Below are positions 5,564 to 21,774 of a DNA stretch of 64,000 nucleotides, piece by piece (position 1 is the stretch's first letter; the number at the start of each line of letters is the position of its first letter). The position numbers were made by a program, and so were the translations under genes. Source of the stretch: Gemmobacter sp. 24YEA27 (GTDB taxonomy: Bacteria; Pseudomonadota; Alphaproteobacteria; Rhodobacterales; Rhodobacteraceae). The stretch spans positions 492,501 to 556,500 of the forward strand of contig NZ_JASJPW010000001.1 of the NCBI RefSeq assembly GCF_030052995.1, written 5' to 3'. The notes below the pieces were generated by a model. It saw only the letters and a list, made by a program, of their open reading frames with translations, ran no database searches and had not been told where the DNA came from.

Positions 5564-6250
5564 ATGGATGACCGCCTGATCGTCGCGATGGATGTGCCGA
5601 ATGTGGTGGCGGGCCTCGCCCTGGCCGACCGGCTGGGCGATGCGGTCGATTTCTACAAGATCGGGCTTGGAATGCTGACCGGCGGTGGCCTGGCACTTGC
5701 ACTGGAACTGAAGAATGAGCGCGAAAAGCGGGTGTTCCTCGACCTCAAGCTTTTTGACATCGGCCAGACCATCGAGAATGCGGTGAAGGGGATTGCCGGG
5801 CTTGGCCTCGATTTCCTCACCGTCCATGGCGACCCGCAGGTGGTGCGGGCGGCCGCCGAAGGCAAGTCAGGGACCGATCTGAAGATCCTCGCGGTGACGG
5901 TGCTGACCTCGCTCGACCGGGGCGATCTGGATGCGAATATGATCCTGCCCGGCGACATCCATGACATCACCGTCGAACGGGCGGCGCGGGCGCTCGCCGC
6001 CGGCGCCGATGGCGTCATCGCCAGCCCGCAGGAGGCGGCGCGGATCCGCGCCCTCCCCGAGGCCGTTGGCAAGCTGATCGTCACCCCCGGCGTGCGCCCG
6101 GCAGGGGCTGCAACCGGCGATCAGAAGCGCATCGCCACGCCCGGGGCCGCGATCCGCGACGGCGCCGATCATATCGTGGTGGGCCGCCCGATCTGGGCCA
6201 GTGCCGATCCGGCAGCCGCGGCCCGTGCGATTATTGCGGAACTGCCCTGA
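5564..6250 (+). CDS. pyrF: Orotidine 5'-phosphate decarboxylase
   Basis: Catalyses the last step of UMP synthesis, decarboxylating OMP. The product of 228 residues is a single TIM barrel of normal length. It starts RLIVAMDVPN and carries the catalytic DxKxxD motif at residues 60-65 (DLKLFD), followed by phosphate-binding loops ILAVTVLTSL, VTPGVRP and HIVVGRPI. The ATG at 5564 follows CGGAGAAG; an upstream in-frame ATG at 5285 would add 93 residues with no similarity. Its 3' end overlaps the converging TetR-family gene by 20 bases. Confidence 0.95.
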   Translation: MDDRLIVAMDVPNVVAGLALADRLGDAVDFYKIGLGMLTGGGLALALELKNEREKRVFLDLKLFDIGQTIENAVKGIAGLGLDFLTVHGDPQVVRAAAEGKSGTDLKILAVTVLTSLDRGDLDANMILPGDIHDITVERAARALAAGADGVIASPQEAARIRALPEAVGKLIVTPGVRPAGAATGDQKRIATPGAAIRDGADHIVVGRPIWASADPAAAARAIIAELP

Positions 6251-6929
6251 CCAGACCTTCCGCGACCAGACCTTCCACGCTGAAATGGCGCGGGAAAAAT
6301 GCGGTGACACAGACCATCAGTGTCGCCAGCGCTTCGCTTGCATCATAAGGTGACTGCATCGTCATCATATCGAGCCAGACACCCTCGGTCGTGACCCGGA
6401 GAACCCGCGCCGTGCGGGTCGGATCGACCATATAGCCATGATCCTCATTCATCCGACGGCAGAGCTCTTCCAGATACTGGTTATACTGCTCGTCGTTTGA
6501 GCCGCATTTCTCCTGGTAAAGCGGCCTCCCCGAGGTCTCGCCCCAGAACGAACACCAGGCCGCCAGCCGCCCCGGCGTGCAGATCTCGGGCCGGAAATCA
6601 GCCGCCAGCATGGCATAAAGCTGTTCCGCCGCCCCTGGCCCCGCCGCCTCGACCGCCCCGGTCCAGTTCTGCCGGTATTCCGCGGACAGATAGAGCAGCG
6701 TTTCCGAGAGCAGGTTTTCCTTGGTCTGGAAGTGGAAATTCACGAGCCCATGCGAAAGGCCGGCCATCCGTGCCACCTCGGACATCGTCGTCCTGGAATA
6801 GCCAAAACGTGCGATGGTCTCGATCGTCGCCTCGATCAGCTGCACGCGCCGGGCATCGCGCGGCATCTTGCGGGGCTGGGAATCAGGGGTCCCGGATTCT
6901 GGGGTATCGGTCTGCTCGATTGCGGCCAT
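6231..6929 (-). CDS. TetR-family repressor, BetI-like
   Basis: A 232-residue regulator. Residues about 28-75 form a TetR helix-turn-helix (LIEATIETIARFGYSRTTMS, then GLSHGLVNFHFQTKENLL), and the remainder is a helical ligand domain of the BetI type (LAAWCSFWGE, GVWLDMMTM). BetI represses choline/glycine-betaine genes; the resemblance suggests an onium or amine effector here. It is transcribed divergently from the aminotransferase/Rieske operon, and the shared intergenic region holds a TTGAC-N6-GTCAA inverted repeat, so it is the probable local repressor. Its 3' end overlaps pyrF by 20 bases. The exact ligand is not predictable. Confidence 0.88.
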   Translation of the reverse strand: MAAIEQTDTPESGTPDSQPRKMPRDARRVQLIEATIETIARFGYSRTTMSEVARMAGLSHGLVNFHFQTKENLLSETLLYLSAEYRQNWTGAVEAAGPGAAEQLYAMLAADFRPEICTPGRLAAWCSFWGETSGRPLYQEKCGSNDEQYNQYLEELCRRMNEDHGYMVDPTRTARVLRVTTEGVWLDMMTMQSPYDASEALATLMVCVTAFFPRHFSVEGLVAEGLVRAVPQ

Positions 6930-6996
6930 CTGCGTCTCCGTTCGCGGCCAGTCTTGCCTGAAAAACCTGCCCGGTAAAAGCGATTTCAGATTCTGA

Positions 6997-7012
6997 TTGA
7001 CAGTTCAGTCAA
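6997..7012. promoter_or_regulatory. Probable operator between the TetR gene and the catabolic operon
   Basis: A perfect inverted repeat TTGAC-AGTTCA-GTCAA in the 129-base divergent intergenic region. Each arm also supplies a TTGAC -35-like element for one strand, so a bound repressor would block both promoters. TetR/BetI proteins bind such short palindromes. No second copy was seen elsewhere in the island. Confidence 0.5.
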
Positions 7013-7058
7013 AATAATTCGACAGTTTGGAGAGCCGCAACAGGAACAGGTTTACGCC

Positions 7059-8416
7059 ATGACCACCGCGCCGCACCGCAAGCTGGAAAAGTCCAACGCC
7101 CATTTCCAAAAGGCGCTGAAGAAGCTGCCGCTGGGGTGGCCTCGACCTTCCGATACTGGGGTGATGAGCGAACGATCTATGTCGATCACGGCAAAGGCGG
7201 CCGGACCTGGGATATCGACGGCAATAATTACGTTGATTACCGGCTGGGCTACGGGCCGGCGATCCTCGGCTATGCAGACGACCGGGTCGATGCCGCCGCA
7301 AAGCGGGGGATGGAGGTCGGCGGCGTCTTTGCCCTCTCGACCGAGCGCGAGCTGGCCGTGGCCGAACGCATCTCGAAAATGGTTCCGGCGGCCGAACTGG
7401 TGCGGTTCTCCAATTCCGGCACCGAGGCGGTGATGTCCGCGCTGCGTCTCGCCCGCGCCTATACGGGGCGCGAGAGCTATCTGCTGGTCGAGGGCGGCTA
7501 TCACGGGTTGTTTGATGCCGCCATGTGGATGGCGAATATGGATGAATGGGACGCGAAATCGAACAGCGATCCCGAGATCGTGCCCTATGGCCAGGGCATC
7601 CCGAATACCGTCAAACAACTCGCCCATCTGGTGCCGATGAACGATATGCAGCGGCTGGAAGACACCTTCCGCCGCCATGGCGACGATATGGCCGCGATGC
7701 TGATCGAGCCGATCCAGGGCAATTGCTGCGGCATCTCGGCCCGAAAAGACTATGTGCAGCGCGCCCGCAAGCTCTGCGACCAATATGGCGTTTTGCTGAT
7801 CATTGATGAGGTGAAAACCGGCTTTCGCGTCGGCAAGGGCGGCATTCAGGGTATCCTGGGCGTCACGCCCGATATCACCACCTTCGCGAAAGCGGTCGCC
7901 AATGGCTATCCGATCTCGCTGGTCGCGGGGCGCGAGGATATCATGCGCACCTTCCGCTATGGCGGCGCGTCGCATGGCGGCACCTATACCGCCCATTCCG
8001 TCAGCCTCGCCGCCGCCGAGGAAACGCTGCGCATCCTTGATGAGACCCCGGCGCTTGAAACGCTCGCGAATTACGGCACCCGGCTGAAGGCCGGCATTTC
8101 CGAAATCCTCTCGGCGCGCGGCATCACGCATAGTTTCTCGGGCCATCCCTCGATGTTCGGCATCTTCTTCGCGCCCGAACCACCGGACAATTACCGCGCC
8201 TGGAAGACCTCGGATTACTCCTTCTACGACCGCATGGCCTGGTACCTGCATGATCTTAACATCATCGTGGAACCCGACTCGCGCGAGCCCTGGTTCATGT
8301 GCGAGGCGCATGGCCTGGACGAGACCTGCTACACCGACACCATCCGCGCGGTGGAGACAGCCGTTGACCTGACGCTGCGTGACCAGGCGGAAGGCAAGCT
8401 GGACGCCGCCGAATGA
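7059..8416 (+). CDS. Class-III PLP aminotransferase (frameshift as read)
   Basis: Restored length is 452 residues. It belongs to the fold-type I class-III group that includes glutamate-1-semialdehyde aminomutase and omega-amine transaminases. Visible motifs are the SNSGTEA phosphate loop, GGYHG, EPIQGN, DEVKTGFR (about 250-257) and the Schiff-base lysine in TTFAKAVANGYP (about residue 278). The true start is ATG 7059 after CAGGAACAGG; the frame breaks at the G run 7133-7136, where one extra G joins KKLPLG to VASTFRYW. Reading from GTG 7136 alone would lose the N-terminal helix. It is the first gene of the operon and overlaps the next by four bases. Role inferred: removal or exchange of an amino group on the imported substrate. 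Confidence 0.88.
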
Positions 8417-10044
8417 CATATGACGCCCTGATCCTTGGTGCCGGGCATAACGGGCTGGTCACCGCCTGCTACCTCGCCCGCGCCGGGATGAAGGTGCTGG
8501 TGATCGAGAAAAACGACTGGGTTGGCGGGGCCGCCGTCTCGCGCGAACTGACCCCCGGCTTCACCTATTCCAACTGCTCCTATGTCGCATCCCTCTTCCG
8601 CCCCGAGATCATGCGCGACCTTGAACTGCCGCGCCACGGGTTGCAGATCCTGCCCTATGAGGGTGGCGCGGTGTTCCAGGAGGGCGGCGGCTACCTCGGC
8701 ATGTATCGCGACCATGATGCGAACCGCCGCGAATTCGCCCGCCACTCGGCCCGCGATGCCGAGGCCTATGATGTCTATTCCCGCGACGTGCTGCGCTATT
8801 GCCGTTTCATCCGCCCGATGCTTCTGCGCACCCCGCCGGACCCGGCGCGGTTCCGCCCGCGCGACATCGGAGAGCTGCTGTTCATCGGCAAACAGGTCTC
8901 GGGCCTGTCGGAACGCCAGATTGCTGACATGGTCCGCTTCTGGACCATGTCGATCTCGGATTACCTCGACCACTATTTTGAAAGCCCTGTGATCAAGGCC
9001 TATCTCGCGGTTTCCGCAATCATCGGCACCGCGCTCGGTCCGATGTCGCCCGGCTCGGCCTATGTGCTCTTGCATCACTATATGGGCGATGTGGATGGCA
9101 ATATCGGTGCCTGGGGGTTCGCGCGCGGCGGCATGGGGTCGATCACCAAAGCGCTGTCGTCGTCCTTGCAGGCCTCGGGTGGCGAGATCCGCACCGGCGC
9201 ACCGGTCGCCCGGGTGCTGGTGAAGAACGGGCGTTCCATCGGCGTTGTGCTGGAGAACGGCGATGAGATCCGGGCAAAGCGCGTGATCTCGAACATGGAT
9301 GTCAAACGTACGATGCTGAAACATGTCGAGGAGCGCGAGCTTCCCGGCGATTATCTCGCCTCGGTCAAAAAGTTCAAAACGCGCGGCTCCTCGGGCAAGC
9401 TGAACATCGCGCTGGACGCCGCCCCGAAATTCACCGCGCTTCCCGAGGGGTCACCCGCGATCAAAGGTGATCTGCATTTCACCGATTCCATCGAAAAGAT
9501 GGAACGCGCCTATGACGACTGGAAGGCCGGGCATTTCTCGCGCGACCCGTTCCAGGATGTGATGATCCCCACCATGATCGACCCGACCATGACGCCACCG
9601 GGCAAGCATTTCATGTCGTGCTTCGTGCAATATGCGCCGCCAAAGATCGGAGGCCTGGCAGAGGGGGGCCGCGACTGGACCGATGCCGATCGCGATGCTT
9701 TCGGCGAAGCCTGTCTGAACCAGATCGAGCGTTACGCACCCGGTTTCAGAAACCTCGTCCGCCATGTCGAGATCCGCACCCCGCGCGAGCTGGAGGCCGA
9801 AGTCGGGCTGACCGAAGGCAACATCTTCCAGGGCGAGCTGACCTTTGACCAGTTGCTCTTCAACCGGCCGGTGCCGGGATATGCCAATTACCGAACCCCC
9901 GTTCGTGATCTCTGGATCTGCGGCTCCTCGACCCATCCCGGCGGTGGCGTGATGGGCGCGCCGGGGCGCAATGCGGCGTCAGAAATCCTGCGCGATGCGA
10001 AACTCTCTCCAAAGGATATGAGCGATGCCTGGCCCGTCCTTTGA
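8413..10044 (+). CDS. FAD-dependent oxidoreductase, phytoene-desaturase-like (1)
   Basis: A 543-residue flavoprotein with an N-terminal Rossmann dinucleotide motif GAGHNG at 9-14, an acidic VIEKN strand end, and the C-terminal FAD motif WICGSSTHPGGGVMGAPG. This layout is that of CrtI/phytoene-desaturase-like and related amine-oxidising FAD enzymes. The neighbours contain no carotenoid genes, so a role in oxidising an amine or intermediate of the methylated substrate is more likely. Its ATG overlaps the aminotransferase stop (ATGA), and its 3' end overlaps the next flavoprotein gene by 20 bases. The reaction is unknown. Confidence 0.85.
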   Translation: MTYDALILGAGHNGLVTACYLARAGMKVLVIEKNDWVGGAAVSRELTPGFTYSNCSYVASLFRPEIMRDLELPRHGLQILPYEGGAVFQEGGGYLGMYRDHDANRREFARHSARDAEAYDVYSRDVLRYCRFIRPMLLRTPPDPARFRPRDIGELLFIGKQVSGLSERQIADMVRFWTMSISDYLDHYFESPVIKAYLAVSAIIGTALGPMSPGSAYVLLHHYMGDVDGNIGAWGFARGGMGSITKALSSSLQASGGEIRTGAPVARVLVKNGRSIGVVLENGDEIRAKRVISNMDVKRTMLKHVEERELPGDYLASVKKFKTRGSSGKLNIALDAAPKFTALPEGSPAIKGDLHFTDSIEKMERAYDDWKAGHFSRDPFQDVMIPTMIDPTMTPPGKHFMSCFVQYAPPKIGGLAEGGRDWTDADRDAFGEACLNQIERYAPGFRNLVRHVEIRTPRELEAEVGLTEGNIFQGELTFDQLLFNRPVPGYANYRTPVRDLWICGSSTHPGGGVMGAPGRNAASEILRDAKLSPKDMSDAWPVL

Positions 10045-11554
10045 TCGTGATGTGATCGTCATCGGGGCCGGGCCTAATGGTCTGGCCTGCGCCCATCGAC
10101 TGGCATCGAAAGGCCGCAAGGTGACGCTGATCGAGGCCGAAGCCACGCCCGGTGGCGGCATCCGTGCACTTCCGGATCTGGCGCCCGGACTGACGCCTTC
10201 GCTGGCGCATCTTGTCTGGCAGATCGACCCGCGGGTCGACGCCGCGATGGATCTGTCGCGCCACGGCCTCACATGGGAGGCCACAGATATTGCGACCACA
10301 GTGATCGGGCGCGACGGCAACCTGGTGATCCGGGGGCCACTGACCGAGGGCCCTGACGCGGCGATCTGGAAGGCGCTTTACCAGCGCCTCCTCTCCTTTG
10401 CTGCCGCGCTGGAGCCTTTCCGCCGGATGGCGCCGCCGCGCCTGCAGGCCGGCGGCAATTCCTGGGTCAGGCTTGCAAAGAACCTGCTTGGTATCCGGGC
10501 GCTTGGCACGAAGGATTATCGCGAATTGCTGCGGGTGATCCTGATCAATGCCCATGACGTGGCTCAGGATGAACTGACAGATCCCCGGCTGCGCGCCGCC
10601 CTGTGTTTCGATGCCGTGCTGGGCGCCTGGGCGGGGCCGCGCTCTCCCAATACACTGATTTTGCTTCTGGATCGGCTGTCCGGAGAAATCGCGGGACGTA
10701 AGGGGGCACTCGGGTTGCCCAAAGGCGGGATGCCCGCGCTGGCGCTGGCTATGACAAATGCTGCGACTGCAGCAGGTGTTTCGCTGCGCAGCAATTCCCG
10801 CGTCAGCCGGATCAGCATCGCCGATGATCGCGTCACCGGCGTGATCCTTCACAGCGGCGAAACCCTTGGCGCGCCGGTGGTGATCTCGGCGATCGGGCCA
10901 AAGGCGACGATCCTGTCCCTCGCTGGCCCGGAGCATTTCGACACCGGCCTTGTCACCGCTTTGCGTCATCAGAAATCGCGGGGCGGCACCGCAAAACTGC
11001 ATCTCGCGCTTTCCGCCCGCCCGGATTTTCAGGGCGCCGACCTGCGCTCCCGCCTGCTGCTGGCCGCAGATGAGCATGAGGTTGAGACCGCCTTCAACCC
11101 GGTCAAATATGGCGAAGTGCCTGACCGCCCGGTGATGGAAGTCGTGATCCCCACGGCATTTTCCGGCGGCACTGGCCCGCATCTTCTGTCGGCCAATGTG
11201 CAATTCGCACCCCATGCGCCGAAGGCGGGCGAAGACGCGGCACGTGAGGCGATGCTCAAGGCCAGCCTCGCGCGGCTGGAGGAGGCGGCGCCAGGGATCA
11301 GCGCGCTGATCACCCGTGCCGGGATCCTGATGCCCTATGATATCGAACGACAGTTCGGCATGGCGGGTGGCAACTGGCATCATGGCGAGCTGGCGGTTGA
11401 ACAGATGCTCTTCAACCGCCCGATCGCGCCGCTGTCGCGCTATGCAACACCGCTGAAAGGGCTCTGGCTTACCGGCGCCGGAACCCATCCGGGCGGCATG
11501 TCGGGCGCCGCCGGCTGGAACGCGGCTGACGCGGTGCTGGAGGCGAAAGCATGA
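10025..11554 (+). CDS. FAD-dependent oxidoreductase, phytoene-desaturase-like (2)
   Basis: A 509-residue paralogue of the preceding flavoprotein: FAD motif GAGPNG at 14-19, TLIEAEATPGGGIR, and C-terminal LWLTGAGTHPGGMSGAAGWN aligned with the equivalent motif of its neighbour. The two probably arose by tandem duplication and may form a heterodimer or catalyse successive oxidations. Start at 10025 lies inside the end of gene 1 in another frame; GGATATGAGCG upstream supplies a weak ribosome site. The stop overlaps the start of the GcvT-like gene (ATGA). Substrate unknown. Confidence 0.85.
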   Translation: MPGPSFDRDVIVIGAGPNGLACAHRLASKGRKVTLIEAEATPGGGIRALPDLAPGLTPSLAHLVWQIDPRVDAAMDLSRHGLTWEATDIATTVIGRDGNLVIRGPLTEGPDAAIWKALYQRLLSFAAALEPFRRMAPPRLQAGGNSWVRLAKNLLGIRALGTKDYRELLRVILINAHDVAQDELTDPRLRAALCFDAVLGAWAGPRSPNTLILLLDRLSGEIAGRKGALGLPKGGMPALALAMTNAATAAGVSLRSNSRVSRISIADDRVTGVILHSGETLGAPVVISAIGPKATILSLAGPEHFDTGLVTALRHQKSRGGTAKLHLALSARPDFQGADLRSRLLLAADEHEVETAFNPVKYGEVPDRPVMEVVIPTAFSGGTGPHLLSANVQFAPHAPKAGEDAAREAMLKASLARLEEAAPGISALITRAGILMPYDIERQFGMAGGNWHHGELAVEQMLFNRPIAPLSRYATPLKGLWLTGAGTHPGGMSGAAGWNAADAVLEAKA

Positions 11555-12774
11555 GCGCAGCCCCCCATCTTAATGCGCCGCTGGTGCTGACCCATTTCAC
11601 CGCCCCGCTGGCGCAGACCCCGTTCCACCCGCGCACCGAAGCCGCGAATCGCCTGCAGGGCTGGGCGCCCTGGGCCGGATACATGACTGCCACCTGTTTC
11701 GGCGACAGCACCATGGAACATACCGCGATCCGCAATGCGGCGACGCTGTATGATATCTCGCCCATGGTGAAATACCGCATCACCGGGCCGGATGCGGTGG
11801 TCTATCTCAACCGCCTGACGCTGCGCGATGTGGGGCGGCTGGCGGTGGGTCAGGTGCATTACACCGCCTGGTGTGACGATCTGGGCAAGGTGATGGATGA
11901 TGGCACCGTCTTTCGCCTCGGGCCTGATGATTTCCGGCTGTGCTGTCAGGAGCGGCACCTGCCCTGGCTGCTCGACAGCGCCTGGGGTCTGGAGGTGCGG
12001 CTCCGGGACGAGACCGAAGATCTCGCCGCGCTGGCGCTGCAGGGGCCGGTTTCGGCGACGGTGCTGGCTCAGGCCGGGTTTGACATCCAGGCGCTGAAAC
12101 CCTTCCGGCTGGCGACTTTCCCGTTCCTGACCGGCGAGGTGATGATTTCGCGCACCGGATTTACCGGCGATCTGGGCTATGAGCTCTGGATCGGCCCCGA
12201 TCTCGCTTTGCCGCTCTGGGATCACCTGATGCAGGCGGGCGCGCTTTACGGGCTGATGCCGGTCGGGTCCGAGGCGGTGATGCTTGCGCGGCTTGAAGCC
12301 GGGTTCATCACGACCGGCATGGATTTCGTCCCTGTCCAGCATGCGGTGCGCGAAGACCGGGCGCGCTCGCCGTTCGAAATCGGCCTCGACTGGATGATCG
12401 CCTGGGATAAGGGGCATTTCACCGGGCGGCGCGCCCTGATGGCCGAGCGCGACGACAAATCATCGAAATGGGCGCTGGTCGGGCTCGACATCCCCGGCAA
12501 TGTCAGTGCCGAGGGCGCGATCCTCTACTTCGACAAGCGCCGCGAGGCGGGGTTCATCACCGCCGCCTGCTGGTCTCCGACATTAAAACGCAACATCGCC
12601 ATCGCCCAGGTCGAGGCGCGTCACGCCAGTTGCGACCATCTCTGGGTCGAAATCTACGCGCTGCGCGAGCTGCAATATCAAAAACTTATGCTGCCGGTCA
12701 CCAAAACCGCCCGGCCGTTTTTCGCCCCGAACGCCGCCGTGCCACCCCACCGGGGAGGTTCTGATGCCGCATGA
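11551..12774 (+). CDS. GcvT-like folate-dependent aminomethyltransferase
   Basis: A 407-residue protein of the glycine-cleavage T-protein/DmdA family. It shows the T-protein features CFGDSTMEHTAIRNAATLYD, the DISPMVKYRITGPDA strand, LQGPVSATVL, RTGFTGDLGYELW and GHFTGRRAL. Family members bind tetrahydrofolate and accept a methylene or methyl group from an N- or S-methyl donor (glycine cleavage, dimethylglycine oxidation, DMSP demethylation by DmdA). Next to Rieske demethylase-like genes it probably captures the released one-carbon unit. No H-, P- or L-protein gene is nearby, so it is not a glycine-cleavage component. It overlaps both neighbours. Confidence 0.88.
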   Translation: MSAAPHLNAPLVLTHFTAPLAQTPFHPRTEAANRLQGWAPWAGYMTATCFGDSTMEHTAIRNAATLYDISPMVKYRITGPDAVVYLNRLTLRDVGRLAVGQVHYTAWCDDLGKVMDDGTVFRLGPDDFRLCCQERHLPWLLDSAWGLEVRLRDETEDLAALALQGPVSATVLAQAGFDIQALKPFRLATFPFLTGEVMISRTGFTGDLGYELWIGPDLALPLWDHLMQAGALYGLMPVGSEAVMLARLEAGFITTGMDFVPVQHAVREDRARSPFEIGLDWMIAWDKGHFTGRRALMAERDDKSSKWALVGLDIPGNVSAEGAILYFDKRREAGFITAACWSPTLKRNIAIAQVEARHASCDHLWVEIYALRELQYQKLMLPVTKTARPFFAPNAAVPPHRGGSDAA

Positions 12775-13932
12775 CATCGCCCAAAGCCCCCATCCTGACA
12801 GCCCCCGCCTCAGCCACTGCCCCGAAACGCTTCCCCGTGCGGCCTGGATCGCCCCGAGTGGTTCGCCCGGGAAATGGAGACGATTTTCGCGCACGAATGG
12901 GTGATGATCGGGCGACTGGCCGATCTGCCCGCCGGCACCATGCGCGGAACCAGGGTGGGAGAGGCCCCGGTTCTGCTGGCGCGGGCGCCTGACGGCAGCG
13001 TCTCGGCCTTTCACAACAGCTGTCGCCATCGCGGGTCTGAACTGTGTCGCGAGGGGGAAGAGCGGTCCTTCAGCAAGCTGATCACCTGCCCCTATCACGC
13101 CTGGGCCTATGCCGCCAAAGACGGGCGACTTGTCTCGACCGCCCATGCCGTGCCAACCTCGGATTTCCGCAAGGAAGACCACGCGCTGAAGCCGGTCGCC
13201 GTGCAGATCTGGAACGGCTTCATCTTCCTGAACCTCGCCTCCGATCCCGGCCCGCTGACTGCCGATATGCCGCTGGAAACCTATGACAACTGGCCAATGG
13301 CGGGGATTGTCACCGGGCATCGCTGGGTCTCGGACCTCGACTGCAACTGGAAGGCATTCTGGGAGAATTACTCGGAATGCCTCCACTGCCCCGGCATCCA
13401 TCCCGAACTCTGCGACATGGTGCCGGTCTATCGCCAGGGCATCATGGGCGCCAACGAAGCGCGGGACTGGGCACCCGATCAGCCCACCGGCCCGAACCTC
13501 AAAGCAGGGGCCGAAAGCTGGACACCTTCGGGCGCGCCTTGCGGGCCGGTCTTTCCCGGGCTGACACCTGAGGAACGCGCGCGCGGCTATACCTTCGTCA
13601 CCCTCTGGCCCTCGACCTATATCGTCGCGCATGTCGATTATGTCCGCGCCGTGCGGCTGGAGCCGGTCTCGCCCACCCGCACGAGGCTGGTGGCGGAGTG
13701 GTATTTCCTGCCCGAAACACTGGCACAGCCCGGCTTTGACGCCGCCACCATCGCGGCTTTCGCGAAACTGGTGATGGAGCAGGACGGCGCCGCGTCCGAG
13801 ATGAACCAGCGCGGCATTGCCTCGCCATCGTTCACGCGCGGCACGCTGATGCCCGAAGAATATGAGATCCACCGTTTCCACCAATGGGTGCTGGCGGCCA
13901 TGGCGACCGGCGGCAAGAGGGGGGCTGCATGA
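12764..13932 (+). CDS. Rieske non-haem iron oxygenase, quaternary-amine type (frameshift as read)
   Basis: Restored length 389 residues. Rieske ligands are C87-x-H89 (CRHRG) and C109-xx-H112 (CPYH). The mononuclear iron motif is ECLHCPGIHPEL: Glu about 205, His 208, His 213. Glu rather than Asp at the position three before the first His is described for carnitine oxygenase CntA and is compatible with GbcA/Stc2-type betaine demethylases, which also have E-C-x-H-C-x3-H-P-E-L. The start is ATG 12764, seven bases after GGGGAGG, giving MPHDIAQSPHPDSP; the C run 12852-12855 lacks one C, without which PEWFAREMETIF is out of frame. An ATG at 12771 opens a wrong frame. It overlaps the GcvT-like gene and the next Rieske gene. 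No reductase partner is adjacent. Confidence 0.88.
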
Positions 13933-15158
13933 CCATATTTCCCGATACTCCGCTGCGCTCTGACCCGATCCCGACAGGCTGGGACCGGCGCGGATTGCCC
14001 GCCTGGACCTATCATTCCCAGGCCCTGTTCGATCTGGAACGTGAAGAGATTTTTCTGACCCACTGGCAGGTCGCGGGCCATATCTCCGACATCCCGGCAC
14101 CGGGCGACTGGCTCTCCTTTGACCTTCTGGGCGAGCGTGCAGTGATCATCCGGGGCCAGGATGGCGAGATCCGCGCCTTCATGAACCTCTGCCGCCATCG
14201 CGGCGCGCGGGTGGTGGATGGCGCGCAGGGCAAGTGCAGGGGCGCGCTGGTCTGCCCCTTCCATGGCTGGGTCTATAACCTTGACGGCACGCTTCGCGGC
14301 GTCTCGCGCCCCGAAACCTTCGGCGATGGCCTGGACAAATCTGCCTTCGGGCTGAAACCGCTGGAGCTTGAGATTTTCGCAGGCTTCCTCTTCCTGCGCT
14401 TTCGCCCCGGGCCTCAGCCGGCGGTGCGCGACCTCCTTGCGCCCTATGCGCCCGATTTCACCGCCTGGAGCGGCGAGAGGCTGATGCCGCTCGATATCTC
14501 CGGCTGGTGGGCGGAGCTTGCAGTGAACTGGAAATCGGTGCGCGATGTGGACAATGAGGGCTATCACGTCGCCCTCGCCCATCCGTCTTTGCAGGATCTG
14601 TACGGCCGCGATTATCGCGACCTGTACCTGCCAGGCGGCCTGCATGTCAGCTACGGCTTTTACGGCGACCGCCCGGGCCGGAGCTGGTCGGTTAGGAACT
14701 ATGTCAGGCATTCGCCGCAGCGCGCAGATCTGCCGCCACATCTGCAACGGAACTGGGCCTATTACGGCCTTTTTCCCAATACGGTGATCGCCTTCACGCC
14801 GGAAAGCGCACAATTCTACCATGACCTGCCGCTGTCACCGGGCAAAACGCTCCTGACCGGCCGCCAGTATCGCCTGGCCGATGAAGACCGCCAGACCCGC
14901 GTCGCCCGCTATCTCGCGCAGCGGATCGACCGCGACACCTCGGCCGAAGATCAGCAGCTGTCGATCTGGTCGAACGAATCAATGCGGTCTGAAAATTTCG
15001 AAGGCTTCCACCTCTCGGACCTCGAATACGGGTTGCGCCGCCATCATGATCAGCTGCGCCGCCTGCTTCCGGTGATGTCCCGCAGCGCCGCACCCGCAGA
15101 GGGTGAAATGCGCGCCCTGAACAAGGATTTGCTTTGTGCAAAGGCAGGGCGGGCTTAG
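13929..15158 (+). CDS. Second Rieske non-haem iron oxygenase alpha subunit
   Basis: A 409-residue ring-hydroxylase-type protein. The Rieske centre is C88-x-H90 and C109-xx-H112 (CRHRG, CPFHG); the catalytic iron motif is DNEGYHVALAHPSL with Glu 210, His 213 and His 218. It is clearly a paralogue, not a copy, of the preceding oxygenase: identity is low outside these motifs. The ATG at 13929 overlaps the previous stop (ATGA). Two Rieske alpha subunits in one operon suggest two successive oxidations, for example two demethylations or demethylation plus hydroxylation. Both need electrons from an NAD(P)H reductase encoded elsewhere. Confidence 0.88.
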   Translation: MTIFPDTPLRSDPIPTGWDRRGLPAWTYHSQALFDLEREEIFLTHWQVAGHISDIPAPGDWLSFDLLGERAVIIRGQDGEIRAFMNLCRHRGARVVDGAQGKCRGALVCPFHGWVYNLDGTLRGVSRPETFGDGLDKSAFGLKPLELEIFAGFLFLRFRPGPQPAVRDLLAPYAPDFTAWSGERLMPLDISGWWAELAVNWKSVRDVDNEGYHVALAHPSLQDLYGRDYRDLYLPGGLHVSYGFYGDRPGRSWSVRNYVRHSPQRADLPPHLQRNWAYYGLFPNTVIAFTPESAQFYHDLPLSPGKTLLTGRQYRLADEDRQTRVARYLAQRIDRDTSAEDQQLSIWSNESMRSENFEGFHLSDLEYGLRRHHDQLRRLLPVMSRSAAPAEGEMRALNKDLLCAKAGRA

Positions 15159-15200: not shown

Positions 15201-16319
15201 ATGAAGCTGACCCGTCGCCACGCACTTACCGCCCTTTCCGGTTCCGTTCTTGCCGGACCGCTGTCTGCGCCCTTCATCCGCCCGGCCCGCGCGAGCGCAG
15301 GCTCGGTCAATGTCTATAACTGGTCGGATTACATCGGTGAGACCACAATTGCCGATTTCGAGGCCGAAACCGGAATCTCGGTCACCTATGACCTTTATGC
15401 CAGCGCCGAAGAGGTGGATGCCAAAATGCTGGTCAGCGGCACCGGATATGACCTCGTTTTGCAATCGGGCATGTCCTATCCGCGTATGGTGGCGGCTGGT
15501 GTCTATCAGAAACTCGACCGCTCCAAATTGCCGGGATGGAGCAATCTAGACCCCGACATCCTGAAAATCATCGAAGATTACGATCCCGGGCAGGTCCATG
15601 GCGTCCCCTATATGTGGGGATCGGTCGGTATGGCCTACAATATGCAGATGGTACGCGCGCGGCTGCCGGATGCTGATCTGAACAGCCTTGATGTTCTGTT
15701 CAAGCCCGGGAATGCGTCGAAACTGGCCGATTGCGGCATCTCGGTTCTCGATAGCCCAAGCGATGCCGGCTATATGATGCTGAAATATCTGGGCCTCGAC
15801 CCCAATACTGCCGGCCCCGCCGAATATGCGAAAATGACCGAGGCTTTTGCGCCGATCCGGAAATATATTACCACATTTGACAATGCGAATTACCTCAACG
15901 CGATCCCAAATGGCGAACTCTGTGTGATCAATTCCTGGTCCGGTGATTACGCTGTCGCCAAGGCTCGCGCCGCCGAAGCCGGGATCGAAATGGAGCTGGC
16001 CTATTTCGTTCCCGAAACCGGCGCGCCGGCCTGGTTCGATCTCTGGGGCATTCCGGCCGATGCGCCGAATGTGGAAAATGCCTACATATTGCTCGATTAT
16101 CTGTTGCGGCCCGAAGTGGCGGCGGCCTGCACCAATTTCACCGGCTATGCCAATGCCAATAAGGCGGCGACGCCGCTGGTCGATCCCGCAATCGCCGGCG
16201 ACCCGGCGATCTATCCCGATGCCGAGACCCTCTCGCGCCTCTTCACCACGCGCCCGATGACCGAAGACCAGGAGCGCGACCTGAACCGAGCCTGGCAGAC
16301 GATCAAGAGTGGCAGTTGA
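15201..16319 (+). CDS. PotD-like extracytoplasmic solute-binding protein
   Basis: A 372-residue periplasmic binding protein for an ABC importer of the polyamine/spermidine-putrescine family. A twin-arginine-like signal (TRRHALTALSGSVLAGP) ends near residue 33; the mature part opens with GSVNVYNWSDYIGE, the typical PotD/PotF beginning, and includes LVLQSGMSYPRM and GVPYMWGSVGMAYN. Ribosome site CAGGGAGA precedes ATG 15201. It heads the transporter genes and follows the second Rieske gene by 42 bases, so is likely in the same transcript. PotD relatives bind polyamines, opines or other cationic and zwitterionic solutes; the ligand here is unassigned. Confidence 0.88.
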   Translation: MKLTRRHALTALSGSVLAGPLSAPFIRPARASAGSVNVYNWSDYIGETTIADFEAETGISVTYDLYASAEEVDAKMLVSGTGYDLVLQSGMSYPRMVAAGVYQKLDRSKLPGWSNLDPDILKIIEDYDPGQVHGVPYMWGSVGMAYNMQMVRARLPDADLNSLDVLFKPGNASKLADCGISVLDSPSDAGYMMLKYLGLDPNTAGPAEYAKMTEAFAPIRKYITTFDNANYLNAIPNGELCVINSWSGDYAVAKARAAEAGIEMELAYFVPETGAPAWFDLWGIPADAPNVENAYILLDYLLRPEVAAACTNFTGYANANKAATPLVDPAIAGDPAIYPDAETLSRLFTTRPMTEDQERDLNRAWQTIKSGS

Positions 16320-16332
16320 GGCGAGGCCCGTC

Positions 16333-17448
16333 ATGTCAGAGCCCGTCATGTCGGAAAATGCCCCTTTCATCCGTATCGAGGGCGTCACCAAACGCTTTGG
16401 CCAGTTCGAGGCGGTACGTGACGTAAATCTGACCATTGGCAAGGGCGAGATCTTCGCCCTGCTCGGCGGCTCCGGCTGCGGCAAGACCACGCTTCTTCGG
16501 ATGCTGGCGGGCTTCGAGACCCCGACAGCGGGGCGGATCTTCATCGACGGCCAGGATATGGCCGATACGCCGCCCTGGGATCGCCCGGTCCATATGATGT
16601 TCCAGAGCTACGCAATCTTTCCGCATATGAGCGTCGAAAAGAACATCGCCTATGGGCTGAAGCACGAAAAGATGACCGCCGCGCGGCGTGCCGCCCGGGT
16701 CGAAGAGATGCTGGCCCTGGTGCAGCTGACGCCTTTTGCCAAAAGGAAACCGCATCAGATTTCCGGCGGACAACGCCAGCGCGTGGCACTGGCGCGCGCG
16801 CTGGCGCGGCAGCCCAAGGTGCTTTTGCTGGACGAGCCACTCGCAGCGCTCGACAAGAAACTGCGCGAACATACCCAGTTCGAACTGATGTCGATCCAGC
16901 AGAATACCGGCGTCACCTTTGTCGTGGTGACCCATGATCAGGAAGAGGCGATGACCCTCGCCGACCGTATCGCGGTGATGGATAAGGGCGAGGTCAAACA
17001 GGTCGGTCCGGCGAACCAGATTTACGAATACCCCAATTCCCGCTTTGTTGCCGGCTTTATCGGCGCGATCTCGACCTATCCGGCCCGCGTCATCCGCCTG
17101 ACCGGCGATCTCACCGAGATCGACATCCCCGCCATGGGCGGCACCTTTGCGGCCCGATCCCTCCCCGGCCTGACCGAGGGCCAGACCGTCACCGTAGCCC
17201 TGCGCCCCGAGAAAGTCTCCATCTCGAAAACCTGCCCCGATGCCGTCAATGTGGTCGAAGGTCAGGTGAAAGACCTCGCCTATTTCGGCAAGGACAGCCT
17301 CTACCGGGTGATCCTGCCGGGGGGCGATCTGATCTCGGTCCATACGGTCAATGCGCGGCGCGCCTCGGAATCCGGCCGCCCCGCCGACTGGGATGACCGC
17401 GTCTGGCTGTCCTTCGAGCCTGCCTCAGCCATCCTCCTGACGGATTGA
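16333..17448 (+). CDS. PotA-like ABC transporter ATPase
   Basis: A 371-residue cytoplasmic ATPase driving the importer. Walker A GGSGCGKT at 45-52, signature ISGGQRQR, Walker B LLLDEPLAALD and switch VVVTHDQEEAM are intact; the last 120 residues form a TOBE-type regulatory domain. An upstream ATG at 16309 overlaps the binding-protein gene, but 16333 is preferred because a GAGGCGAGG ribosome site sits just before it and similarity begins there. Followed by a 99-base gap with an intergenic repeat before the permease genes. Confidence 0.9.
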   Translation: MSEPVMSENAPFIRIEGVTKRFGQFEAVRDVNLTIGKGEIFALLGGSGCGKTTLLRMLAGFETPTAGRIFIDGQDMADTPPWDRPVHMMFQSYAIFPHMSVEKNIAYGLKHEKMTAARRAARVEEMLALVQLTPFAKRKPHQISGGQRQRVALARALARQPKVLLLDEPLAALDKKLREHTQFELMSIQQNTGVTFVVVTHDQEEAMTLADRIAVMDKGEVKQVGPANQIYEYPNSRFVAGFIGAISTYPARVIRLTGDLTEIDIPAMGGTFAARSLPGLTEGQTVTVALRPEKVSISKTCPDAVNVVEGQVKDLAYFGKDSLYRVILPGGDLISVHTVNARRASESGRPADWDDRVWLSFEPASAILLTD

Positions 17449-17520: not shown

Positions 17521-17547
17521 CGCGAGCCCCAGAACACGAGGCCTGCC

Positions 17548-18468
17548 ATGAAATCCCTCGCCTCCTGGTTCCACCGCCGCGGCTGGCGCGATCTGATCAT
17601 CGGCATCCCCTATCTCTGGCTGATCGTCTTCTTCCTGATCCCCTTCCTCATCGTCGTGGCGATGAGCCTCGCGACCCGCACCCCCACCGCGCCGCCCTTT
17701 GGCTATGGCGGCGAGAACCCGATCCTTAATTTTGACGGCTATGCGCGGCTTTTCACCGAGACCCTCTATATCCGCGCCTTTATCACCTCGCTGATAAATG
17801 CCGCCGTCGCCACGGCGATCTGCCTGATCATCGGCTATCCGATGGCGCTCGGCCTCACCCGGGTTTCGAAATCCTGGCGCAATATTCTTCTGATGCTGGT
17901 GATCCTGCCCTTCTGGACCTCGTTCCTGCTGCGCGTCTACGCCTGGATGGGGATGATGGGGCGGAACTCCTGGTTCAACGGGCTCCTGACCGACATCTGG
18001 AATCTCCTCACCCCGCAATCTTACGCGCTGACCTCGATCCCGATGATGAACAGCAATTTCGCGGTGGTTCTCGTCATGGTCTATTGCTACCTGCCCTTCA
18101 TGATCCTGCCGCTTTACGCCAATCTCGAACGGCTCGATCCGGTGCTGGACGAGGCCGCGATGGATCTCGGCTCAAGGCCTTTCCAGGTCTTCCGCGATGT
18201 CACCCTGCCGCAATCGATACCGGGCATCATCGCGGGCGCCATGCTCGTCTTCATCCCGGCAGCGGGAGAGCTGGTGATCCCCGCCCTCGTCGGCAACCCC
18301 TCTTCGCCGATGATCGGCCGCATCATCTCGGATGAATTCGCGCAGGTCAGGGACTGGCCCATGGCCTCGACCGTCGCCGTGGCGCTTCTGATCCTGATGG
18401 TCGGGCCGACCATGCTTTATTCCCGCTATCAGCAAAAAGCCGAGGGCCGGGCGGAGGAGCGCCCATGA
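17548..18468 (+). CDS. PotB-like ABC transporter permease
   Basis: A 306-residue inner-membrane permease with six predicted transmembrane segments (first at about 17-40, IIGIPYLWLIVFFLIPFLIV). The EAA loop that contacts the ATPase is visible as DEAAMDLGSRPFQVFRDVTL. Position between the ATPase and a second permease matches the potABCD-type arrangement. Start ATG 17548 follows a weak GAGGCC site. It overlaps the next gene by four bases. Confidence 0.9.
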   Translation: MKSLASWFHRRGWRDLIIGIPYLWLIVFFLIPFLIVVAMSLATRTPTAPPFGYGGENPILNFDGYARLFTETLYIRAFITSLINAAVATAICLIIGYPMALGLTRVSKSWRNILLMLVILPFWTSFLLRVYAWMGMMGRNSWFNGLLTDIWNLLTPQSYALTSIPMMNSNFAVVLVMVYCYLPFMILPLYANLERLDPVLDEAAMDLGSRPFQVFRDVTLPQSIPGIIAGAMLVFIPAAGELVIPALVGNPSSPMIGRIISDEFAQVRDWPMASTVAVALLILMVGPTMLYSRYQQKAEGRAEERP

Positions 18469-19304
18469 CCCGCCGCCCCGTCTTTCTGATCACCGTGATG
18501 TGCTTTGGGTTCGCCTTTTTCTACATCCCGATCCTCTCGATGATCATCTATTCCTTCAACGAAAGCCGGCTGGTGACGGTCTGGGGCGGATTCTCAATCA
18601 AATGGTATGTCTCGCTGTTTTCCAATCGCCAGATCGGCGCCGCGCTCTGGCTCTCGTTGCAGATCGCCCTGATCTCGGCCTCGGTCGCGACGGTGCTTGG
18701 CGCCATGGCCGGGATCACGCTGGCGCGGTTTCGCAAATTCCGGGGCCGCACCGCGTTTTCCGGCATGGTCACAGCACCGCTGATCATGCCCGAGGTGATC
18801 ACCGGCATCTCGCTGCTGATCTTCTTCACGCTGCTTGCGAACTGGATCGGCTGGCCGGGGCAGCGCGGTTTCACCACGATCACGCTGGCGCATATCACCT
18901 TCTCGATGGTGTTCGTCACCACCGTGGTCCATTCGCGGATGATCCAGATGGACCGCTCGATCGAAGAGGCCGCGATGGATCTTGGGGCCCGTCCCTGGCA
19001 GGTGCTGAAGGACGTGACACTGCCGGTGATCTCGCCCGCGCTGCTGTCGGGCTGGCTGCTGGCCTTCACCATCTCGCTTGATGATGTGGTGATCACCACC
19101 TTCGTGATGGGGCCGGGATCGACCACGCTTCCCTTGCTGATCTGGTCCAAGGTCAAGCTGGGCGTCACGCCCGATATCAACGCACTCGCCACGCTGATCG
19201 TGGTGATTGTGGGGATCTGCGTTGCCATTGCCGGCTGGCTGATGAGCCGGGCCGAAAGGCGGCGCCTCGCCGAAGAACGCCTCGCTTACCGGAGCAACGG
19301 ATGA
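18465..19304 (+). CDS. PotC-like ABC transporter permease
   Basis: A 279-residue second permease with six hydrophobic segments and an EAA loop EEAAMDLGARPWQVLKDVTL. Together with the preceding permease it forms the membrane channel of the importer. Start ATGA overlap with the upstream gene and an ATGA overlap with the cupin gene downstream show a single translationally coupled operon. Confidence 0.9.
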   Translation: MTRRPVFLITVMCFGFAFFYIPILSMIIYSFNESRLVTVWGGFSIKWYVSLFSNRQIGAALWLSLQIALISASVATVLGAMAGITLARFRKFRGRTAFSGMVTAPLIMPEVITGISLLIFFTLLANWIGWPGQRGFTTITLAHITFSMVFVTTVVHSRMIQMDRSIEEAAMDLGARPWQVLKDVTLPVISPALLSGWLLAFTISLDDVVITTFVMGPGSTTLPLLIWSKVKLGVTPDINALATLIVVIVGICVAIAGWLMSRAERRRLAEERLAYRSNG

Positions 19305-20160
19305 CGGATCTCAGAACCGGCGCGCTATGGCTTGCCCTGGCTGAGCCCGCCGGCCCGCCCGGCTCCGGGCGTCGCCGCTACGGCGCGGCGATGGCGCTCC
19401 ACGCAGCCGGCGCGCTGAGCACCGCCCAGCTCGAGGCTTACCGCGAGGCGGCCACCGCCGATGCCGTCGAGCCATTCCGCGTCATGGCGGATCGCGGGCT
19501 CGCGCCACCCGCCGCGCCCGCGCCCGATGCCGCCGCCCGCCTCGCGCATCTCATGGCCGAGACAGACCGCTGCCTTGCCGCCCTTTCCGGCCCGGGGATT
19601 GCCGAGACCCGAACGCTTCTCGCCCCCGCCCTGCTGCAAAAGCCAGACCCACGCCCCGGGCGCGCAAACCTGGTGGTCGAAACCCATATGGATACCGCAT
19701 TGGAGGCCGCAAAAACCATCGACCCGACACTGGCCGCCGCCATCGCCGCCGCGACGGGGGATCTGACCTGGATCACCTATGACGCCTATCCGCCCGATCA
19801 GATCGGGCCGCATTTTGCCTCTTCCCACGCCTTCTGCTCACTGATCGGCGCAGCCGCGCCCTGGACAGCCAGCGATTTCGACCTTGGCCTCTTCCTCGTC
19901 GCGCCTGGCATTCTCTACCGCGATCATGCCCATCCGCGCCCGAGCTTTACCTGCCGCTCACCGGCCCGCATCGCTGGCGTTTCACCCCTGACGGAGTCTT
20001 CCGCACGCTTCCCGCGCTGCAGCCGGTCTGGAACCCGGCGTTAAAGCCGCATGCGACCCTGACCGGGGCCCTGCCCTTCCTCAGCCTCTTCGCCTGGACC
20101 CGCGATGTCGACCAGCCTGCCCATGTGCTGCCGGCCAGCGACTGGAGCCTTTATGAGTGA
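19301..20160 (+). CDS. DMSP-lyase-like cupin protein (frameshift as read)
   Basis: Restored length 286 residues. The N-terminal helical part (about 1-170) is followed by SSHAFCSLIG and a cupin whose metal motif, once the frame is corrected, reads YRDHAHPAPELYLPLTG: H-x-H-x3-E plus a Tyr two residues on, as in DddQ-type dimethylsulfoniopropionate lyases; a later His (KPHATL) can be the fourth ligand. DddQ cleaves DMSP to acrylate and dimethyl sulfide. The raw sequence lacks one G near 19936 (CCGCG for CCGGCG), which replaces the metal site with an Arg/Ser-rich tail ending at 20044. The true stop at 20158-20160 overlaps the amidohydrolase start. Actual substrate may be another beta-onium carboxylate. 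Confidence 0.75.
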
Positions 20161-21774
20161 CCACCTCCTGATCAATGGCCACATCCATACGATGGACCCG
20201 GCTTTGCCGCAGGCGCGCGCGATCCTGATCCGCGACGGCATTATCGCAGCCGTCGGAGGCGATGACATCGCCGCCCTCGCCCACCCCGAGCACGGATCAC
20301 CGACCTTGGCGGGCGGCTCGTCCTGCCCGGGTTTCAGGATGCCCATACCCATCTCCTCTCCGGCGGCACCGATCTCGCCACCGCTGCACAGCTTTACGAG
20401 GCCGAAGACCTCGCTACGCTGGCACAGCTGATCCGCAGCCATGCCGCAGCTCATCCCGACCTGCCTTTGCTGGTTGGTGCCGGCTGGCAGCCGGGGATTT
20501 TCGGCGACCATAACCTCACCGCCGCCTGGCTTGACCCGCTGACCGGTTCCCGCCCGGCGCTGATCTATGATTCCAGCTTCCACTCCGCCTGTTTCAACTC
20601 TGCCGCACTGGAGATCGCCGGGATCACCGATGACACAAACGATCCGCCCAATGGCCATATCCTGCGGGATGCGACCGGCCAGGCCACCGGCATGTTGCAT
20701 GAAGAAGCGATCCCCTGGGCGCTGGAACGCCTGCCCGGCTTCACCGATGACCAGCTGTTGGCCGGGCTGATGGCAGGCCAGGCCCATGCCAATCGCCATG
20801 GCATCACCGGCGTGATCGACGCCAAAATCACCGCGATCGAGGCGCGGATCTATGCCCGTGCCGCGCGCGAAAACCTCCTCACCCTGCGCGTCGCCGGGGC
20901 GGCCCATGTCTCCGAGGCCGATACTCCGGAAACCGCAGTGGCACGGCTGAGCGCATTGCGCGCCGCCCATCCGGGTCCGGATTTCCACATCAATGCCGCG
21001 AAGTTTTTCATGGACGGCGTGTTCGAGAACCGAACCGCCGCCTGCCTCGTCCCCTATGCCGATGCAGAGGGCGGCAATGCACCCTGCATGTTCCGCCATG
21101 ATCAGACGCTGGCGCTGATGACAGCACTGGATGCCGCGCGCTTTCAGATCCATGTCCATGTGATTGGCGATGCCGCCTGCGCCCGCGCGCTGGACGGGCT
21201 GGAGGCAGCGCTGGCCGCCAATGGTCCCTGGCCCGCCTGCCACCAGATCACTCATCTGCAACTGGTGGCCCCCGCCGATTTCCCCCGCCTCGCGCGGCTC
21301 GCAATGGCGAATATTCAGCCGCTCTGGGCGCGATTCGACCCGAAGATCCCCGATATCGCGCTCGACATGATCGGGCCCGCGCGCCTGCCGCAGACCTATG
21401 CGTTTCGCGACATGGTGAATCTGGGAGCCAGTTTCGCCATGTCGTCGGACTGGCCGGTCTCGACCCTGAACCCGTTCGAGATCATCGAAACCGCCATTAC
21501 CCGCCAGGCGCGCGCCCATGATCATCCCGGCCCGCCCTTCCTGCCTGCTCAGGCGCTCAGTGTGACCGAATGTGTAGCGGGCTATACGATTAACGCCGCC
21601 CGCGCCTCCTGGCGTGACGGCTATAGCGGCCGGCTCTCTCCGGGTTTTTCTGCCGATCTGATCGTGACGGATCTGGATATTTTCAGCTGTGCGCCCGCGC
21701 GGATTTCTGCCACCCGCGTCCTTCTGACCCTGTTCCGGGGACAGGAGGTCTGGCGCGATCCTTCTCTGCGCTGA
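20153..21774 (+). CDS. YtcJ-like metal-dependent amidohydrolase (frameshift as read)
   Basis: Restored length 540 residues, normal for the amidohydrolase-3 (YtcJ) family. The corrected N-terminus gives LLINGHIHTMDPALPQARAI and then the metal motif LPGFQDAHTHL; later motifs are HVIGDAACARAL and MSSDWPVSTLNP. A base is missing around 20293-20295 (CACGGATC should have one more C or G), which otherwise truncates the protein after about 90 residues and leaves an apparently separate frame from 20467. Members hydrolyse amide or related C-N bonds with one or two zinc ions. As last gene of the island it may release the substrate from a conjugate or open a ring. Confidence 0.85.

Follow-up and report, generated by a model that had tools for sequence, protein, structure and literature searches.

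A window of 64,000 nucleotides from Gemmobacter sp. 24YEA27 contains a set of 13 genes which raises the question of what compound it serves to import and degrade. A first-pass annotation had read the set as a complete pathway for the import and demethylation of a betaine or sulfonium osmolyte under its own regulator. The analysis presented here favors the substrate-inducible catabolism of an amine that is N-methylated and carries two positive charges (a methylated diamine or polyamine), to which a probability of roughly 45% is given.

Gene content and conservation

A BetI-type TetR gene lies divergent from a densely packed operon which encodes, on the plus strand, a class-III aminotransferase (AT), two CrtI-type flavoproteins (CrtA and CrtB), a GcvT-type protein, two Rieske oxygenases (RieA and RieB), the importer PotDABC, a cupin and an amidohydrolase. 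A domain scan confirmed the genes and families named earlier at their positions, and the ORF coordinates in the window bear out the tight overlap that had been described, with adjoining genes sharing a few bases at many of their junctions. The same gene order, which the first-pass annotation had suggested looking for in other genomes, recurs across many of them, far beyond chance. A scan with RieA retained the best 80 loci, of which 25 without enough flank were excluded from the module counts. All 13 genes are kept in 17 of the remaining 55 relatives, gene presence being scored by identity thresholds of our own setting; the cupin gene is absent from several operons. Of 394 genomes sampled from the window's family, 54 contain the RieB gene.

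The island's genes include no oxygenase reductase or aldehyde dehydrogenase according to the domain scan, so that the term "complete" was too strong; a GbcB-like reductase is encoded elsewhere in the same genome. The idea of a complete pathway inside the operon is rejected since, in genomes with compact operons, close copies of the CrtA-CrtB-GcvT trio were not found in 17 of 20 and a close AT was not found in 15 of 15. The operon for homarine goes by the name homABCDER. No published assignment of the 13-gene set was found in the open-access literature searched, a scope outside which a homarine study from 2026 falls, and the earlier statement that no described pathway has this exact gene set stands within that scope. 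The 2026 study is cited in PMC13390433, which also contains a remark on Mgd.

In this assembly four genes are split between reading frames, namely at the 5′ ends of the AT and RieA genes, in the 3′ part of the cupin gene and in the 5′ part of the amidohydrolase gene. These splits had been overlooked previously. In comparison with locus L009 (95% identical), 15 of 16 indel runs within 21 kb are frame-breaking and 12 of these 15 are bases missing from the window, which suggests an assembly error. This bias towards missing bases comes from L009 only, as the frame-breaking runs among the 93 found against L010 (84% identical) are balanced (40 missing, 35 extra). Relatives carry intact copies of the split genes. 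On these sequence comparisons the splits are probably errors of assembly; a pseudogene island is disfavored, short of proof, by the L009 bias and the intact relatives, with L010 showing no such bias.

Regulator and operator-like repeat

The repressor gene (6231..6929, minus strand) encodes a protein with TetR_N and TetR_C_6 domains. Its description as BetI-like holds for the family, through the BetI-type domain TetR_C_6 alone, but not for BetI itself, the score against the BetI equivalog TIGR03384 being 89.5 bits, where 201.3 bits is the curated cut-off. An operator-like inverted repeat, TTGACAGTTCAGTCAA (6997..7012), lies in the gap that separates tetR from the AT gene. The intergenic region beside tetR was examined in the window and in 51 other loci, each having a tetR no less than 45% identical and a gap between 20 and 500 bases long; an operator-like TTGACAGNNCAGTCAR site is present in all 52. 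At least 11 of the 14 fixed positions of the consensus, which was derived from these same 52 regions, are matched in every one. Mononucleotide shuffling, which preserves base composition only, predicts such a match in 0.8% of regions. The genome has seven TTGACN6GTCAA sites, and the single one with this core is that at 6997..7012. The exact repeat is not shared by the sister clusters, some of which have related TTGA/TCAA palindromes.

Importer

PotD (15201..16319) is a PotF-type binding protein (SBP_bac_8) with a conserved polyamine-type pocket. It is accompanied by the ATPase PotA (16309..17448; ABC_tran and TOBE_2), which at 372.6 bits is above the cut-off of TIGR01187 (355.6), and by the permeases PotB (17548..18468) and PotC (18465..19304), both with BPD_transp_1. 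Against the PotF equivalog NF007962 PotD scores 331.8 bits, under the cut-off of 636. The PotF-type acidic and aromatic pocket residues, whose roles under PotF numbering are assumed here, are found in 47 of 47 binding proteins at seven positions and in 46 of 47 at two. Position 185 (PotF numbering) is Asp in PotD (Glu in PotF) and position 276 is Trp (Phe in PotF). Because the pocket keeps these PotF-type residues, a diamine or polyamine that is N-methylated and doubly cationic is favored over a betaine or DMSP. In the binding proteins of sister clusters the acidic pocket is lost.

Rieske oxygenases

RieA (12764..13932, frame-split at its 5′ end, main frame 12874-13932) and RieB (13929..15158, with an inferred start in a frame open from 13884) both contain Rieske and Ring_hydroxyl_A domains. 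RieA is Stc2/GbcA-like, with Stc2 (3vca) as its best match among solved proteins and relatives of Stc2 next. RieB is CntA-like by sequence, CntA being its nearest solved protein in a ranking that is in part not decisive, and its predicted structure aligns best with Stc2 3vca in a fold ranking that is not decisive. Both lie below the cut-off of the GbcA equivalog NF058607 (670 bits), at 147.7 bits for RieA (main frame only) and 123.5 bits for RieB, and identity is ~30% for RieA to a GbcA-like protein and for RieB to YeaW.

Among hand-picked Rieske rows, a Glu bridging the Rieske and iron sites is present in 19 of 19 RieA or RieA-like rows and 10 of 10 RieB rows. It is also present in YeaW, the GbcA-like protein and Stc2, with Asp in NdoB, BenA, 9o71, 2bmo and 7yls. 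We take this Glu as a class mark from the references compared, and presume it for CntA. In the tree RieB and a Sphingobium relative group with YeaW/CntA (92/86) and RieA forms its own clade (99/99). A placement of both proteins among aromatic dioxygenases, which would have refuted the original reading, was not found, although the classes are not cleanly separated, as the long-branched NdoB/BenA group with GbcA-like rows (94/90). Relatives of RieA adjoin MTTB, NADH:flavin-oxidoreductase or agmatine-deiminase-family genes, and the sister cluster L121 has a GbcA-like Rieske gene. The S. meliloti pair in L110, presumed here to be GbcA/GbcB, is recorded as an aromatic ring-hydroxylating dioxygenase and a hybrid-cluster NAD(P)-dependent oxidoreductase.

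One of the closest known systems is stachydrine (proline betaine) catabolism, in which a StcD-type flavin oxidoreductase partners Stc2, this structure giving the best solved match of RieA and the best alignment of the RieB model. An NADH:flavin oxidoreductase gene is a neighbor of the RieA relative in L073 and is also present in L121, whereas the island in the window does not have it and possesses a Pot-type importer, an AT and the CrtI-type trio. The CntA/CntB and GbcA/GbcB systems are similar in the bridging Glu of their Rieske subunits and in the grouping of RieB, and differ in the low identity, the GbcA score far under its cut-off and the lack of an adjoining reductase gene here.

The CrtA-CrtB-GcvT trio

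CrtA (8413..10044), a CrtI/CrtO-type flavoprotein, and CrtB (10025..11554), a second CrtI-type flavoprotein with ~30% identity to it, have Amino_oxidase domains and are followed by a stand-alone GcvT-type tetrahydrofolate enzyme (11551..12774; GCV_T at 189 bits and GCV_T_C). The predicted fold of CrtA is nearest to carotenoid desaturase, then to 3ka7, renalase and putrescine oxidase, the structure models having been built from shallow alignments (16 and 11 sequences). Despite this fold, a carotenoid role for CrtA and CrtB is disfavored by gene context. Among solved proteins the one nearest to this GcvT-type enzyme is TMAO demethylase (Tdm), in its C-terminal half, followed by GcvT and dimethylglycine oxidase; the match of the enzyme to DmdA is weak (123.7 bits, cut-off 410). 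The tripeptide DDG, presumably the folate site, is found in 36 of 36 GcvT relatives and aligns with the DDG of Tdm, so that features of a GcvT/DMGDH-type folate domain are present.

CrtA was found in 17 genomes, the window's own included, from which 14 neighborhoods were taken (L172 duplicates L073). The trio occurs together in 13 of the 14 further neighborhoods. The second flavoprotein is closer to CrtA than to CrtB in L173, L177 and L178, and the L168 neighborhood contains an AT and an aldehyde dehydrogenase. The trio is a separable module, best read as a split N-methylamine dehydrogenase which would pass a one-carbon unit onto tetrahydrofolate. Dimethylglycine dehydrogenase/oxidase, sarcosine oxidase and Tdm likewise have a GcvT-type folate domain that catches an amine-derived one-carbon unit; here, however, GcvT is a separate protein beside two flavoproteins of CrtI type, not DAO type.

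Three CrtA relatives (P0006, P0009 and P0061) have UniRef names beginning "Pyridine nucleotide-disulfid" or "Pyridine nucleotide", which we take to indicate the PYROXD family; other relatives are named phytoene desaturase. To our knowledge, the enzymatic function of human PYROXD2 is not known. Searching again for homologs, this time with a CrtA of marine origin as query, did not strengthen the PYROXD2 link. Variants of human PYROXD2 show associations with N6-methyl-, dimethyl- and trimethyllysine, N-methylpipecolate, trimethylamine and dimethylamine (PMC8109053), with the methyllysine association also in a second source (PMC9730628), and PYROXD2 is further associated with hydroxyhexadecanoylcarnitine (PMC9320943). 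The likeness of human PYROXD2 to the trio consists of the N-methylated amines which its variants track and the three names. It is possible, if doubtful, that the trio constitutes a new class of N-methylamine demethylase, in which two CrtI/PYROXD2-type flavoproteins oxidize and a separate GcvT traps the methylene on tetrahydrofolate, and which bacteria combine with varied sets of importer, aminotransferase and onium-type Rieske oxygenase so as to use methylated amines, in this case a methylated diamine or polyamine. If PYROXD2 were the animal counterpart, its strong genetic link to methyllysines would gain a direct enzymatic explanation. The trio would also offer a simple bacterial system for probing PYROXD2-like flavoprotein function, and the operon may hint at the role of this poorly understood human enzyme.

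Aminotransferase, cupin and amidohydrolase

The AT (7059..8416; Aminotran_3), with a frame change near its 5′ end and a main frame of 7136-8416, is GSAM/GntE-like, and its nearest solved structures are GSAM enzymes. The main frame alone is below the cut-offs of both GntE (NF041362; 412.5 bits against 525) and hemL (319.7 against 527.3). The cupin (19301..20044), the 3′ part of which runs on in another frame, belongs to the DMSP_lyase family (PF16867, 42.4 bits for the frame-split copy). The intact cupin of the annotated Fuscovulum ytuae copy (L109) reaches only 36 bits to the solved DMSP lyase 5cu1, with the His/His/Glu and His positions aligned. The YtcJ-type amidohydrolase (20467..21774; Amidohydro_3, PF07969) has its 5′ part upstream in other frames and is longer and intact in L109; its role might, at a guess, be N-formyl or lactam hydrolysis.

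Proposed pathway and alternative substrates

In the proposed pathway PotDABC would take up the methylated amine, and the compound or its product would release the BetI-type repressor from the TTGACAG..CAGTCAR operator. RieA and RieB, with electrons from a reductase encoded elsewhere (possibly the GbcB-like one), would hydroxylate N-methyls on quaternary or tertiary nitrogen, the methyls being lost as formaldehyde. The remaining N-methylamine would be dehydrogenated to an iminium by CrtA and CrtB, with GcvT transferring the one-carbon unit to tetrahydrofolate as in a split dimethylglycine dehydrogenase. The AT may then take off the primary amine, leaving a carbon skeleton for central metabolism. 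Putrescine/polyamine uptake by PotFGHI with the AT/aldehyde dehydrogenase route is comparable in the PotF/SpuD-like PotD with its pocket kept, the class-III AT and the AT and aldehyde dehydrogenase of L168; the polyamine routes known to us have neither Rieske oxygenases nor the trio. From the original reading, import and Rieske/GcvT demethylation of an onium compound under a dedicated regulator are retained on the likeness to Stc2 and CntA, the bridging Glu and the neighbors of RieA, and completeness is not.

Of the candidates first listed, a methylated polyamine fits best. A carboxylate betaine (carnitine-like, beta-alanine betaine, proline-betaine-like, homarine or trigonelline), for which a Pot-type system would have been re-purposed as importer and RieA/RieB would carry out demethylation together with the trio, is unlikely: the pocket Asp residues retained in this operon type should repel a carboxylate and a simple betaine would need no class-III AT, even though Stc2 and CntA both act on betaines, sister clusters have lost the acidic pocket, L121 has its GbcA-like gene and MTTB genes lie by some RieA relatives. 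Somewhat less likely again is an amino acid that is methylated and bears a second amine, N6-mono-, di- or trimethyllysine in particular. The AT and quaternary-amine Rieske enzymes are compatible with it and the PYROXD-like names and methyllysine associations point to it, but the importer is PotF-like rather than one for amino acids, the PYROXD2 link draws on partial names beside relatives named phytoene desaturase, and the acylcarnitine association (PMC9320943) points elsewhere.

A pathway for aromatic or xenobiotic amines, in which RieA/RieB would hydroxylate the ring, is improbable. It is rejected as the main reading because of the Glu bridge in 29 of 29 RieA/RieB rows and the lack of ring-cleavage genes (nor were ferredoxin or small-subunit genes present among the scanned genes), and the polyamine-type pocket also speaks against it; neither the tree nor the fold ranking decides the matter, nor does part of the RieB sequence ranking. 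A sulfonium pathway, with the cupin as DMSP lyase and GcvT acting as DmdA, is very improbable. The family of the cupin and the weak DmdA match of GcvT would agree with it, but it is rejected because the cupin is remote from solved lyases, besides being absent from several operons, GcvT is nearer to Tdm and aminomethyltransferases, and the importer is of polyamine type; the sulfonium candidate raised earlier is dropped accordingly on the score of the intact cupin.

The preferred reading, catabolism of a methylated diamine or polyamine, concerns a use for which we know of no assigned genes, and in fresh water as in the sea the methylated amines form a large pool of nitrogen that is poorly resolved. 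A proven substrate would lead to the re-annotation of many genomes in which these genes are now named phytoene desaturase, aromatic dioxygenase or DMSP lyase. Downstream of the amidohydrolase gene, the window continues with Tad-pilus/T2SS-type genes and the F. ytuae copy with a methyltransferase gene.

Organization of the island

The island was found to comprise a BetI-type TetR gene (6231–6929, minus strand) diverging from a plus-strand operon that ends at 21774 and encodes, in order, a class-III aminotransferase (AT), two CrtI-type flavoproteins (CrtA and CrtB), GcvT, two Rieske oxygenases (RieA and RieB), PotD, PotA, PotB, PotC, a DMSP-lyase-family cupin and a YtcJ-type amidohydrolase. Family and domain scans of the window upheld the gene list and coordinates of the first-pass annotation. 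Genes for an OMP decarboxylase and a Clp-type ATPase lie upstream, and Tad-pilus/T2SS-type genes follow shortly downstream (22087–29090; RcpC/CpaB-like, AAA ATPase, T2SSE and two T2SSF). Other genomes have intact copies, for example an annotated plasmid of Fuscovulum ytuae (L109), on which the amidohydrolase gene is followed by a methyltransferase gene. Each island enzyme falls in a known family, and the cut-offs of the curated GbcA, BetI, PotF, GntE and GSAM models were missed by the island proteins (AT and RieA being represented by their main frames only).

Four of the genes are frame-split in the assembly (7059–7140, 12764–12874 and 19900–20500), the break falling towards the 5' end of AT and RieA, in the 3' part of the cupin and in the 5' part of the amidohydrolase. 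Compared with the locus of Paracoccus sp. IB05 (L009, 95% identical, 21 kb), of the 16 indel runs 15 disrupt the frame, and in 12 of these 15 the window lacks bases; against a locus of 84% identity (L010), 75 of 93 runs do so (40 missing and 35 extra in the window). Judging from these alignments, the splits are probably assembly errors.

Conservation and modular composition

Scanning of genome contigs with RieA yielded at least 593 relatives in 597 stretches. The best 80 were taken, and modules were counted in the 55 of these loci whose flanks reach 6.5 kb or more upstream and 7.5 kb or more downstream, the other 25 being omitted. Among these 55 flanked loci from the best 80 relatives, RieB was found in 42 and all four pot genes in 41, always together with RieB, followed by the cupin (38), the complete CrtA-CrtB-GcvT trio (30, with at least one member in 31), AT (28) and the amidohydrolase (27). 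The complete 13-gene set occurred in 17, while nine had RieA without any of the other twelve genes. In the window's family, 54 of the 394 genomes sampled (47 of 347 good genomes) encode RieB at E ≤1e-60.

Compact operons consist of tetR, rieA, rieB and potDABC, often with the cupin gene. In 20 genomes lacking the trio at the locus, a close CrtA (63–66% identity) was encoded elsewhere in three, the remainder giving distant matches (≤35%, over long stretches) or none, and 15 genomes in which no AT adjoins the locus gave no close AT match (best 35% identity). These absences are provisional because several of the genomes are MAGs. On these results the trio and AT look accessory to a core of the two Rieske enzymes and the importer.

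Distant RieB relatives (47–59% identity) in Shinella, Rhizobium sp. SL42, Ensifer and Parasedimentitalea adjoin the trio, a TetR gene, a class-III AT and a Pot-type importer. Their AT (27–28%) and binding protein (24–25% identical to the window's) belong to other lineages, so different bacteria have joined one shared core to aminotransferases and importers recruited separately. A RieB-like gene of Sphingobium (39%, Asp at the bridge between the Rieske and iron sites) adjoins a CrtA-like gene (40%), the other members being absent there. In three genomes of one genus (L175, L176 and L180), a trio of CrtA, a second flavoprotein and GcvT was observed without AT, Rieske or Pot matches; a glnE-like gene lies immediately upstream of it in L175, where L176 and L180 have a similarly sized open frame.

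Two records with Rhodobacteraceae-type operon genes, named Exiguobacterium profundum (L048, CP059262.1; RieA, 71% identity) and Pseudomonas sp. GX19020 (P0004; CrtA, 97% identity), are probably mislabelled, to judge by these sequences.

Operator-like repeat

An operator-like inverted repeat, TTGACAGNNCAGTCAR, lies between the tetR and AT genes (6997–7012). All 52 intergenic regions examined between tetR and the operon contain it (at least 11 of 14 positions; mononucleotide shuffles give a chance expectation of 0.8% per region), irrespective of whether AT, crtA or rieA opens the operon, and it is the predicted binding site of the operon TetR protein. Since only the window site, among seven TTGACN6GTCAA sites in the genome, has the TTGACAGNNCAGTCAR core, the regulator appears to act locally. 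In one sister cluster (L173), the palindrome TTGATTGAACGTTCAATCAA (3145–3164) lies between the tetR and AT genes; it resembles a BetI box.

Importer and proposed pathway

The nearest relatives of PotD are SpuD and PotF. Of the positions which we take to line the ligand pocket (PotF numbering), W37, D39, Y40, D185, W244, W276 and D278 are shared by all 47 PotD sequences, and D247 and Y314 each by 46; PotF differs in having Glu at 185 and Phe at 276, where PotD has Asp and Trp. In five sister-type binding proteins (L120, L121, L122, L169 and L170), positions 39, 247 and 278 are occupied by Gly, Thr and Cys; PotD of locus L168 retains all three Asp. From the Asp residues kept in the operon PotDs and replaced in the five sister types, the studied operon seems to import a compound positively charged at both ends, and the sister clusters a different compound.

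A pathway is proposed on the basis of the anatomy, conservation and residue patterns observed, from which we infer its substrate, step order and electron source. The substrate would be imported and then N-demethylated by RieA/RieB with loss of formaldehyde; CrtA/CrtB would dehydrogenate the leftover N-methylamine, GcvT passing the one-carbon unit to tetrahydrofolate, and AT would finally deaminate the product; the cupin and the amidohydrolase are given no step in this scheme. In the openly available papers searched by full text, no description of such a gene set or of its substrate was found. PMC13390433 cites a homarine paper of 2026, and the island may overlap with the homarine operon.

Possible further methylated-amine genes

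Genes of the MTTB family were found near RieA relatives that lie outside the operon, at six loci (L035, L071 and L073 by Pfam; L069, L070 and L077 by clustering), accompanied by an NADH:flavin oxidoreductase (Pfam, L073). Glutamine-synthetase-like genes near the relatives in L065 and L074, about equally close to gamma-glutamylputrescine synthetase, score far below the cut-off for that enzyme. Based on N-terminal sequences only, we read genes of L035 as sarcosine-oxidase-like and one of L066 as DMGDH-like. The latter lies in a region (L066, 5000–17200) with a RieA relative, an agmatine-deiminase-family gene (scoring below its cut-off), an aminotransferase and a PnrA-type ABC importer, possibly another methylated-amine cluster. 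The window's genome (G000:C1, C2 and C3) has 15 matches to the GcvT query, one being the window's own, and four further Rieske oxygenases with a Glu bridge (L136, L137, L138 and L140), which suggests a broad capacity for methylated-amine catabolism.
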